Assembly: GCA_021799595.1 (NCBI GenBank)
Contig: JAJZAF010000003.1
Span: forward strand, 1 to 64,000
Reading direction: 5' to 3'
DNA: 64,000 nt
DNA from: a bacterium
GTDB lineage: Bacteria; Patescibacteriota; Saccharimonadia; Saccharimonadales; UBA4665
Within the stretch, counting starts at the first letter, position 1, and each line of letters begins with the position of its first letter. The notes under the pieces are model-generated. The model saw nothing but the letters and a program-made list of their open reading frames with translations. It was not told where the DNA came from and did no database searches. Below are positions 58,000 through 61,057 of the stretch, one piece after another. The position numbers were made by a program, and so were the translations under genes.

Positions 58000-60285
58000 T
58001 TAGACAGATTGTTTATGACGACGAATCTTAGTTTTGTGGAGCGCTAACAGTTCTTTGGCCTGCTTTTCGGTCAATTTTGCTGGATTCTGTTTTGCGTTAA
58101 TGCGCGCATTCTTCTTGCCATCGGTTACGTATGGTCCATATGGTCCATTTAAAACTTTGATGCCGCTACTAAATTCCTGAATGCTTTTAGCGGCATCCTG
58201 CGCCTGTTTGTCCCTAAAAAGCTTACGGGCTTCTGTTTCAGTGATAGTGCGGGGGTCAAGAGGCTTAATCGATACAAATGTCTGACCTACTTGAATATAG
58301 GGGCCGTAGCGTCCTATATTGGCCTTAATTTCCTGTCCATCTTCCGTAGTACCGACAATCCGTGGGAGTGTAAACATATCTAAAGCTTGCTCTAAAGTGA
58401 CGCTTTCAATTGTTTGGCCAGCTGGCATAGGAGCAAAATCTGGTTTCTTGTCTTTATTTTCAGTTTCTCCTCGTTGCAGCATAGGTCCATACCGGCCATA
58501 TCGAGCATAAATAGGTTCACCATTCTTGGGATCATGACCAAGAAGATGAGCCTGCGATACTTCCTGACGGGGAATGTCTTCAGATTTTTTGACGAGCGGA
58601 TGGAAATCTTTATAAAATGATGCAATCATCTTCTGCCAGGATTCCTTCCCTCTCTCAATCTGATCAAAGTCTGTCTCTACCCGAGCCGTGAAATCATAAT
58701 CGACGATGTTTGAGAAGTGCTTGACCAAAAAATCTGTGACCACTTCGGCAATAGGAGTTGGTACGAGTTTTGCGCGATCTGCTCCAGTCGTTACAGTTAC
58801 TTGTTTGCTTGTGATGGTGCCATGTTCAAGGGTGAGTTCTGTAATTTGTCGATCAGTCCCTTCAATATCAATCTTCTCGGCATAACCACGGCTTTGGATA
58901 GTTGAGATCGTCGGCGCATAGGTACTTGGACGGCCAATACCTAAGTCTTCCAATTTTCTCACTAATGTGGCTTCTGAATAACGGGCTGAGGGCCGACTGA
59001 AAACCTCGGTAGCGGTTATGCGCTTTGTATCAAGGTTCTGTCCACTTTCTAGTTCAGGTAAGATCATATCTTCTTTTTTGCCGCCAATCACCCGTAAGAA
59101 ACCGTCAAAACGGAGGATTTCTCCTTTCGCGAGAAATTGTTCGGACTGGTTACTAATGTCGATAGTAACTTCGGTCTTCTCTACTTTAGCAGCAGCCATT
59201 TGACTTGCCACTGTGCGCTGCCAGATAATTTGGTAGAGCTTCTGCTGCTTCTGTTCGCCTCGGATGGTTGTTTTTTTTAGGTCAGTCGGTCGAATAGCTT
59301 CATGTGCTTCCTGAGCGGTGGCGTTTTTTGTTTTATATTGCCTGGTCTGGCTATATTGACCTCCATAGGTTTTGGTAATGTAATCTGCGGCTGCATGAAG
59401 GGCTATATCAGATAAATTTGTACTATCTGTTCGCATATAGGTTATATGACCTGCCTCGTATAAGCGTTGAGCTAACACCATTGTCTGTCGAACACTAAAA
59501 CCTAACCGGCGGCTGGCTTCTTGTTGCAAAGTGCTGGTCGTGAAAGGTGGACTAGGGCTGCGTCTACCAGGCTTCTTCTCTACTCTGGTGATAGTAAAGG
59601 TGGCTGCTTTGATTTTATTAAGCCACTCCTTGGTTTGGCCCGCATCTTTTAGCTTAGTAGTCAGTTCGGCAGGCACTTCATGCCCCTTCTTATCTGTAAA
59701 AATTGTTGTTACTTTGTAGCTGCTAACAGGTTTAAAGTCTTTAATCTCTCGCTCTCGCTCGACGAGCAATCGAACTGCAACTGATTGGACACGGCCAGCA
59801 CTCAAACCAGTCCGGACCTTTTTCCAAAGTATGGGCGAAAGTTCGTAGCCAACCAGACGATCGAGTGTCCGGCGTGCTTGCTGTGCATCAACCAGCTGTT
59901 GATCGACAACCCTCGGATGAGCTATGGCATCAGTAATGGCGGGTTTGGTAATTTCATGAAATACAATTCTTTTCGTTGTCTTGGGGTCTAAACCGAGGGC
60001 TTGTGTCAAATGCCAGGCGATAGCTTCGCCTTCCCGATCCTCATCGCTTGCAAGCCATACTTGCCTGTTGCGGGCGGCCTGCTTCAAATCGGCTACCACT
60101 CTTTTCTTGTCAGAGCTGATTTCATATTTAGGCTCAAAATTATGGGCAATGTCTATGTTGAGGCCCTTTTTGGGCAAGTCTCGAATATGACCGAAGCTGC
60201 TTTTGACCGTGTAATCCTCGCTCAAGAATTTCTCGATGGTTTTAGCCTTGGCTGGGCTTTCAACAATAAGCAGATTTTTTGTCAT
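58000..60285 (-). CDS. topA: DNA topoisomerase I
   Basis: Type IA topoisomerase that relaxes negative supercoils. The TOPRIM domain opens NLLIVESPAKAKTIEKFL, with the Asp pair in SDEDREGEA. The catalytic Tyr lies in ITYMRTDSTNLS. Instead of zinc fingers, the C-terminus has three Topoisom-I-repeat (Toprim-Crpt) units, each with a Gly-Pro-Tyr motif (GRYGPML, GRYGPYIQ and GPYGPYVT). 761 aa. ATG 60285 has GGAG 8 nt upstream. Confidence 0.96.
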   Translation of the reverse strand: MTKNLLIVESPAKAKTIEKFLSEDYTVKSSFGHIRDLPKKGLNIDIAHNFEPKYEISSDKKRVVADLKQAARNRQVWLASDEDREGEAIAWHLTQALGLDPKTTKRIVFHEITKPAITDAIAHPRVVDQQLVDAQQARRTLDRLVGYELSPILWKKVRTGLSAGRVQSVAVRLLVEREREIKDFKPVSSYKVTTIFTDKKGHEVPAELTTKLKDAGQTKEWLNKIKAATFTITRVEKKPGRRSPSPPFTTSTLQQEASRRLGFSVRQTMVLAQRLYEAGHITYMRTDSTNLSDIALHAAADYITKTYGGQYSQTRQYKTKNATAQEAHEAIRPTDLKKTTIRGEQKQQKLYQIIWQRTVASQMAAAKVEKTEVTIDISNQSEQFLAKGEILRFDGFLRVIGGKKEDMILPELESGQNLDTKRITATEVFSRPSARYSEATLVRKLEDLGIGRPSTYAPTISTIQSRGYAEKIDIEGTDRQITELTLEHGTITSKQVTVTTGADRAKLVPTPIAEVVTDFLVKHFSNIVDYDFTARVETDFDQIERGKESWQKMIASFYKDFHPLVKKSEDIPRQEVSQAHLLGHDPKNGEPIYARYGRYGPMLQRGETENKDKKPDFAPMPAGQTIESVTLEQALDMFTLPRIVGTTEDGQEIKANIGRYGPYIQVGQTFVSIKPLDPRTITETEARKLFRDKQAQDAAKSIQEFSSGIKVLNGPYGPYVTDGKKNARINAKQNPAKLTEKQAKELLALHKTKIRRHKQSV

Positions 60286-60371
60286 ACTAATGCTCCATCT
60301 AAGCGTACTTAACGAGAGAATGCAATATGTATATAAGACAAAGCTGTAAAATTACTAACTATTTTTAAGTT

Positions 60372-60536
60372 TTAAGGGCTAAAATAATTAACAAGGTAAT
60401 ACGCTACGAAGATACCTATAATTGCACCGACGGAACTCCAAAATAAACTCCAAAGGCTGAGACTAAAAAAACCGCCACCTAACGATCCGCCAATAGTTCC
60501 GCCAATAAGTATTCCGAGGGTAATTGCGCGTTTCAT
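60372..60536 (-). CDS. 54-residue glycine-rich membrane protein
   Basis: MKRAITLGILIGGTIGG at the start, then two hydrophobic stretches with Gly and Ser, ending YYLVNYFSP. It is too short for routine gene calls. It resembles half of a GlsB/YmgE-type small membrane protein, but the likeness is weak. It has a promoter of its own (60546-60574), which supports a real gene. Confidence 0.6.
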   Translation of the reverse strand: MKRAITLGILIGGTIGGSLGGGFFSLSLWSLFWSSVGAIIGIFVAYYLVNYFSP

Positions 60537-60545
60537 GCCATATAA

Positions 60546-60574
60546 AGTATAGCAAGCGTTAGCTTTTTTGATAA
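60546..60574 (-). promoter_or_regulatory. Promoter of the 54-residue membrane protein
   Basis: On the minus strand TTATCA (60574-60569), 17 bp, TATACT (60551-60546) with TGC as extended -10. ATG 60536 is 9 nt on. Confidence 0.6.
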
Positions 60575-60596
60575 ATATCTAAAATGTTTTAAAGTA

Positions 60597-60625
60597 TTGA
60601 CATAATGTAATACTTTTGCTAAAAT
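60597..60625 (+). promoter_or_regulatory. Near-consensus promoter of the structured RNA
   Basis: TTGACA (60597-60602), 17 bp, TAAAAT (60620-60625) preceded by TGC. It points away from the small membrane protein and toward no annotated rightward gene. Confidence 0.8.
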
Positions 60626-60631
60626 AGCAAC

Positions 60632-61055
60632 TTATGATTTCCCTATAGGGGAATTCAGCACCTTTACCCCCCCATTCTAACCCTCTATTGCACTGTTGTA
60701 ATAGAGAGATTGTTAGATTGTTTTAGAGCGTGCCATAGATAAAAGTTGTTACCCTCCACTTTCTCTTATGGATGTTTGATAGCATACCTTTTCGTATGTC
60801 TGAAACATGCTCTAAAACATACTAACCCCTTTAACTAGTATCCCCTTTATTTTTGAAGGTGGCCCCGACCAATGCGAGCCCCAACGGTAGCTGCTTTATT
60901 AAAGGCGGCTGACACGAGTCACATATATACTAGCGACATCGATGTTTCGCCGGGGTGGGTTGAAGGGACTAGGGGAAGATTTCTTTTTAAGAAAACTTCC
61001 CCACTAAAAAAGGCTGACGAGCGGTGCCCACCCCCTCTCGTCGGCCTTTTTTAGT
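60632..61055 (+). ncRNA. Unidentified structured RNA, about 420 nt
   Basis: It starts at a strong promoter and ends at a strong terminator. From 5' to 3': a 7-bp hairpin (60683-60689 with 60700-60706); a three-way junction closed by 5 bp (60712-60716 with 60822-60826), a 3x3 internal loop and 13 bp (60720-60732 with 60806-60818), enclosing hairpins 60733-60771 and 60782-60799; a less clear middle; a 13-bp hairpin with one A-A mismatch (60972-61002); and the terminator. The conserved cores of RNase P RNA, tmRNA, SRP RNA and T-box leaders were looked for by eye and not found. The 60-codon ORF at 60872 (SD-like GAAGGTGG) runs through both 3' hairpins and is unlikely to be the main product. Confidence 0.65.
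61003..61055. terminator. Bidirectional intrinsic terminator
   Basis: A 19-bp stem (61003-61021 with 61037-61055) with one G-U pair. Its A-run on the left and T-run on the right make it work in both directions: for the structured RNA on the plus strand and for pth, whose stop is at 61058-61060, on the minus strand. Confidence 0.9.
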
Positions 61056-61057
61056 GT

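Follow-up and report, generated by a model that had tools for sequence, protein, structure and literature searches.

The window, that is, the whole stretch of 64,000 nucleotides that was analysed, carries near its end a promoter on the plus strand, TTGACA-N17-TAAAAT, at 60597–60625 (-35 box TTGACA at 60597–60602, -10 box TAAAAT at 60620–60625). It is followed by a structured non-coding RNA gene whose predicted transcribed part, 60632–61056 on the plus strand, was delimited by this promoter and by an intrinsic terminator hairpin at 61002–61056. The flanking genes, topA and pth, are located on the opposite strand, and this arrangement is kept in relatives. An earlier note on this DNA had stated that the neighbouring genes, which it named as pth and der, run the other way. 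Because of its promoter, its terminator and the convergent pth, the RNA was considered free-standing in this genome. Read from its sequence, the segment 60597–61056 thus combines a conserved promoter, a structured body and an intrinsic terminator in one free-standing RNA gene. The promoter, which the earlier note had called near-consensus, was conserved as TTGACA-N16-18-TAnnnT in 83 of the 85 homologues described below.

Some further features were observed around the promoter. Many relatives have dprA between topA and the RNA. In the window this gene is missing from 60285–60597, and its place is occupied by a small predicted membrane protein (60372–60536, minus strand). An inverted repeat, AAAGTATT-N10-AATACTTT, at 60591–60616 overlaps the -35 box, and f2 genomes show TTGAC-N5-GTCAA at the same position (f1 and f2, for families or lineages, and g46, for a genus, are working labels). 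This repeat may be the operator of some regulator. The promoter block AAAGTATTGACA was also considered as a dif-like recombination site, but it was also seen ahead of apparent promoters in viral contigs that are unrelated, so that this reading was dropped in favour of a mere extended -35 element, which is the probable explanation.

The plus strand of 60632–61055 folded at -159.6 kcal/mol, compared with a mean of -103.2 for shuffled sequences (z = -9.6), and none of 100 shuffles was as good. The reverse strand of the same segment also folded better than its shuffles (z = -9.1). As both strands fold well, the strand of the RNA was assigned from the promoter, the terminator and the U run of the terminator. 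No gene of ordinary size is present, in agreement with the earlier statement that the region holds no good gene. The 60-aa ORF at 60872 was rejected as a protein-coding gene since most relatives lack its ATG start and have indels that disrupt the reading frame.

The RNA was compared with all 4227 families of Rfam 15, as the earlier note had proposed, with the curated gathering score as the criterion. No model reached this score in the window, and the segment gave only chance-level matches. Moreover, none of 12 homologous loci came near a cut-off, the best match being 32.3 bits against a cut-off of 60. This agrees with the earlier view that the known large bacterial RNAs checked by motif do not fit. 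RNase P RNA and tmRNA were rejected because the genome has its own on contig C13 (244.7 bits) and contig C15 (70.3 bits), respectively. 6S RNA was rejected as well, as no 6S model matched at the locus and the genome has only a sub-threshold match elsewhere, and the SRP models of Rfam gave no match at the RNA locus. A cis-regulatory leader or riboswitch was rejected for this genome, given the terminator and the convergent pth here and in many relatives; small plus-strand ORFs 3' of the RNA occur in only some relatives. In the open-licence literature, no papers on such an RNA in Saccharibacteria were found.

The distribution of the RNA was determined in GTDB genome samples. When 60630–60990 was used as a BLASTN query, matches were obtained in 85 of 93 genomes of the same family; the samples include incomplete MAGs, and absence from a single genome is no evidence of loss. 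A profile search then recovered the RNA almost from end to end in each of these 85 loci. In the loci long enough to judge, the homologues lie between topA (often together with dprA) and pth, and are convergent with pth. A covariance model of the P3 core, R1, matched 200 of 393 genomes of the class and found the RNA in family f2 too; all those among the matches listed belong to the order Saccharimonadales, and absence outside the order is based on about 32 class genomes and on the sensitivity of R1. Likewise, the record titles of the scanned contigs give Saccharibacteria or Saccharimonadales as hosts. The search of Saccharibacteria genomes that the earlier note had suggested therefore gave homologues across the order. 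Together with the Rfam result and the compensatory changes described below, this supports its reading of the locus as a free-standing structured RNA that it could not identify. Being at a single syntenic locus and present order-wide, the RNA is argued to have a core rather than an accessory role. An order-wide, vertically inherited, single-copy RNA with its own promoter and intrinsic terminator is strongly supported by sequence, and the element is a predicted, previously undescribed and strongly structured ncRNA at one fixed place in almost all Saccharimonadales. As a separate observation, many relatives (L017, L020, L022, L023, L026, L028, L029, L034) have one or two of the small plus-strand ORFs between the terminator and pth. 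They encode approximately 80–115 aa with a vaguely similar N-terminus, e.g. xxIxFxxxE, and none is present in the window.

Covariation was evaluated with 121 dereplicated sequences against a null in which substitutions were placed at random along the tree, similar to that of R-scape. The pairs of the terminator stem exceeded every null alignment, and parts of P8/P9 were also significant. Single pairs of P3, P4 and P6 were too conserved for significance alone and were assessed by counts of double changes on the tree. Compensatory changes were present in P3, P4, P6, P7 and the terminator stem. In the case of P3, UGUUUUAGAGC/GCUCUAAAACA at 60719–60729/60809–60819 (the helix of model R1), most pairs showed double changes, with up to 10 double events and 96–100% canonical pairing in the 121 sequences. 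One pair of P6 showed 24 double events and one pair of P7 showed 12. The long-range helix P4, CCCUUUAAC/GUUGAAGGG at 60827–60835/60959–60967, encloses the 3' domain P5–P9; eight of its nine pairs were canonical in all 121 sequences, and several had changed on both sides. In g46, the most divergent genus examined, P4 becomes CCCUCUAAC/GUUAGAGGG and the GUUAG/CUAAC helix becomes UUGC/GCAA, both by compensatory changes. P4 had gone unnoticed in the earlier note.

The other elements of the fold in that note were recovered to different degrees. Its three-way junction closed by 18 bp was retained in part: the long stem 60712–60729/60809–60826 was found, whereas of the two inner arms only the one with the CCCUCC loop is conserved. 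This arm, P3b, has the conserved apical loop region GUUACCCUCCACUU at 60748–60761 in the alignment, which is also kept in f2. For the junction stem 60720–60732/60806–60818, where covariation had been proposed as a check, compensatory changes were seen, as in other helices. The 13-bp hairpin was located at 60972–61002, before the terminator; its sequence is not conserved, and it is absent in some relatives. The 19-bp terminator stem was found at 61002–61020/61038–61056. Moreover, the strand GUUAG (60712–60716) can pair with CUAAC either upstream at 60677–60681, forming the 5' hairpin P2 (60677–60716), the apical part of which differs between species, or downstream at 60822–60826, forming an outer helix of P3 (60712–60826). 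As both partners are well kept, this strand is a possible conformational switch. The covariation also bears on whether the segment is nothing more than an ordinary terminator region between genes, inherited from a common ancestor and with no function as RNA. A good intrinsic terminator adjoining the convergent pth would suit such an origin, but it is contradicted already by the covariation, and the long-range helices with compensatory changes, the invariant loops and the phage copies described below leave it scarcely credible.

The terminator stem changes freely, while its 17-nt loop, GCGGUGCCCACCCCCUC at 61021–61037, is fixed apart from rare one-base variants. A single occurrence per genome was found in 84 of 93 genomes of the family. 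Among 393 class genomes, 108 had the loop; all of these belong to the order, and the large family f2 is not represented among them. Because it is a single copy, it was rejected as a general terminator motif of the genome. When the 17-mer was located in bacterial genomes, it was on a stem of at least 7 bp at 69 sites, which are the RNA gene, or of at most 5 bp at 49 sites in other organisms, with none between. In f2, the terminator loop is GAUGCCCACCCUU, also on a covarying stem; this exact 13-mer occurred in 241 of 295 f2 genomes, nearly always once, compared with 2 genomes for a reversed control pattern. A few genomes have second f2-type loops, which were considered as hairpins of prophages; the examples inspected proved to be either chance matches with no stem or additional copies of the RNA. 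The f1-type and f2-type loops have UGCCCACCC in common. Its complement, GGGUGGG, lies just 5' of the 3' strand of P4 in both lineages, except in L346 and g46, where it is altered or away from its usual place and the loop is kept. In the window, GGGGUGGG at 60952–60959 is complementary to the loop core CCCACCCC, and the two, both invariant, could form a pseudoknot. As the loop core and GGGUGGG are complementary and both conserved, a cis pseudoknot is plausible. The invariant loop, its internal complement and its phage copies had been overlooked in the earlier note.

The loops were also searched in IMG/VR, by exact-pattern scans that miss variants and with some contigs overlapping in origin (e.g. 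L250/L251 and L248/L253), so that not all sites are independent. The f1-type loop was found on 36 contigs, nearly all sites being on a hairpin with a stem unrelated to that of the host; 34 phage hairpins with this loop on unrelated stems were obtained. The presence of the f2 loop in phages was then predicted before this loop was searched for. With a U-A closing pair, this loop occurred at 49 sites, of which 36 had a stem of at least 8 bp, compared with 12 of 294 random sites (approximately 4%). With a C-G closing pair, 8 of 33 sites had such a stem. A C-rich loop with other flanks, TGGTGCCCACCCCC, was rejected as a phage hairpin because it was not stem-enriched (control, 4 of 120). When whole records were checked, each phage contig had exactly one exact loop copy of its own, and the only other sites within three mismatches were three isolated three-mismatch sites and the host RNA on contig G456. 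The body of the RNA was absent from the phage hairpin loci, except for L249, which carries the host gene. What the phages carry is one isolated hairpin, whose loop is that of either the one or the other host lineage. Judging by the loop alone, the f2-type loops would belong to phages of f2 hosts.

For the 73 phage hairpins together, the upstream gene was co-directional in 56 of 70 cases and the downstream gene in 55 of 67. The positions of the hairpin vary: it was found where the portal gene ends or a scaffold-like gene is about to begin, behind a capsid-like gene, ahead of terL, within genes and in the leader of recT; portal, terminase, integrase and RecT had Pfam or PHROG support where tested, and the scaffold-like, capsid-like and some terL genes were assigned by position and appearance. 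In many related phages, the hairpin has stayed at one and the same junction between genes. A few of the hairpins resemble ordinary terminators, and U runs come after some of them. In one group of phages (L228, L234, L236, L237, L242, L243, L245), the hairpin lies 3' of a gene of approximately 80 codons. The same phages have a second hairpin, CCAGC...GCUGG, which is followed by an acidic scaffold-like gene.

One prophage connects a phage hairpin directly with a host. Contig G456 (L553 and L554; IMGVR_UViG_3300049064_000004) is a prophage with an integrase, a portal, a terminase and a RecT-like protein, bounded by direct repeats of approximately 70 bp. Its right repeat runs into the promoter of the host RNA and ends in the -35 box, with the RNA gene next, and its own hairpin is located approximately 190 nt before recT. 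As the prophage is beside an f1-type RNA gene, at least one hairpin phage lives in an f1-type host; the loop type was matched to the host in this one prophage only. Prophages and CRISPR-targeted phages of Saccharibacteria are known, with no mention of such hairpins (PMC10746230). An insertion next to the RNA gene, together with one loop copy per genome, might indicate that the loop acts as DNA, as a single-stranded or cruciform site of integration, replication or packaging common to chromosome and phage. However, the prophage lies at the promoter and not at the loop, the loop strand follows transcription, and the host loop is part of a conserved RNA terminator, so that a role as DNA is considered very unlikely.

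A role of the hairpin in cis deserves more weight, although we hold it to be a possibility on the doubtful side. Here, a factor of the host would recognise the loop hairpin as a signal for processing, 3'-end stability, antitermination or translation. The core RNA and the phage messages would each use it for their own transcript, and phages would not attack the RNA. The location of the hairpins on the transcribed strand, often in intergenic gaps of late operons, the shared junction in related phages and the U runs after some hairpins are consistent with such a signal. Nevertheless, such a signal ought to stay with one particular gene or to recur at several, and over all phages neither is the case: each phage contig has one copy, at positions from the recT leader to the portal, terL and capsid region and inside genes. 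Moreover, the host genome uses the hairpin only once.

The phage hairpin most likely acts in trans, since it is present in one copy, has the loop type of the host lineage, follows the transcribed strand at no fixed position and comes without the remainder of the RNA. One form of such action would need no protein: the phage hairpins could be targets or sponges that kiss GGGUGGG of the host RNA, which in turn may attack phage messages. The loop core and GGGUGGG are indeed complementary over 7–8 nt in both lineages. However, the lineage-specific flanks, GCGG/CCUC versus GA/UU, are common to host and phage and yet have no pairing partner in GGGUGGG. A target that does harm should moreover be lost by phages, and the GGGUGGG strand itself is out of place in g46 and changed in L346; pure kissing is thus rather improbable. 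As these flanks are shared by host and phage, a co-evolving protein fits better than a C-rich seed alone. For this reason, a decoy or hijack of a partner is preferred, with direct pairing to GGGUGGG as a variant.

The best explanation, which we would accept with about even confidence, is a core RNA whose 3' hairpin docks a partner, with phage decoys acting in trans; we infer both the partner and the function. The terminator hairpin would double as the docking element, and its loop, fixed per lineage on a free stem, would be recognised by this partner, for which an RNA-binding protein specific to the lineage is the most likely candidate. Pairing of the loop core CCCACCC with the conserved GGGUGGG might provide two states, free and paired. 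The phage hairpin would compete in trans for the partner, or pair with the G-rich strand of the RNA, and could disable or redirect the host RNA during infection. Several points speak against this explanation: only one phage was tied directly to an RNA-bearing host, the same-junction hairpins of related phages also fit a cis role, some phage hairpins resemble ordinary terminators, and g46 and L346 keep the loop although GGGUGGG is not where it usually lies.

The closest known case is the RNA anti-CRISPRs (Racrs, or solitary repeat units; Nature 2023), which copy CRISPR repeats (PMC10651486). In both cases, the phage has one isolated RNA element in which a portion of a host ncRNA is copied, with lineage matching (PMC10651486); here, the match to the host type comes from one prophage. 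Unlike a Racr, the phage hairpin copies no CRISPR repeat but the terminator loop of a single-copy, vertically inherited core RNA at one locus, and the copy is confined to the loop, with no constraint on the stem. A Racr inhibits the host system by titrating a protein, and by analogy the phage hairpin might work in the same way, like an RNA anti-CRISPR that copies a core, non-CRISPR RNA. The phage copies suggest that a core RNA machine of these bacteria is either disturbed or borrowed by their phages. That this machine lies outside the described classes, and that phages counter or hijack it with a lineage-matched one-hairpin decoy, is a proposal we believe about as much as we doubt; if true, phages would here mimic a housekeeping RNA that has nothing to do with CRISPR.

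As Saccharibacteria live as ultrasmall epibionts and have reduced genomes, an RNA of more than 300 nt that is kept order-wide at one locus is likely to be central to their biology. The phage hairpins offer a natural handle on its function, as they would indicate which nine to seventeen nucleotides matter, and the loop type would predict the host range of a phage. Cultured, genetically tractable Saccharibacteria exist (PMC10633639).

Some known RNAs resemble the saccharibacterial RNA in part. The invariant C-rich hairpin loops, here CCCUCC and CCCACCC, could reach G-rich targets as in regulatory RNAs of the RNAIII type, which have C-rich loops; however, no homology was found, and here the loop is fixed family-wide together with flanks that do not pair. 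OLE, GOLLD and ROOL are large structured bacterial RNAs of unknown or partly known function, with which the RNA shares a length of several hundred nucleotides, a complex fold and a single gene; unlike theirs, it matches no Rfam model. 6S RNA, a bacterial RNA of general purpose, might serve as a model for the role of this RNA, but differs in length and architecture. The sub-threshold 6S-like match in this genome (G000; L045) is weak, 28.7 bits, at C13:13614-13696, and may be a divergent 6S RNA of this group.
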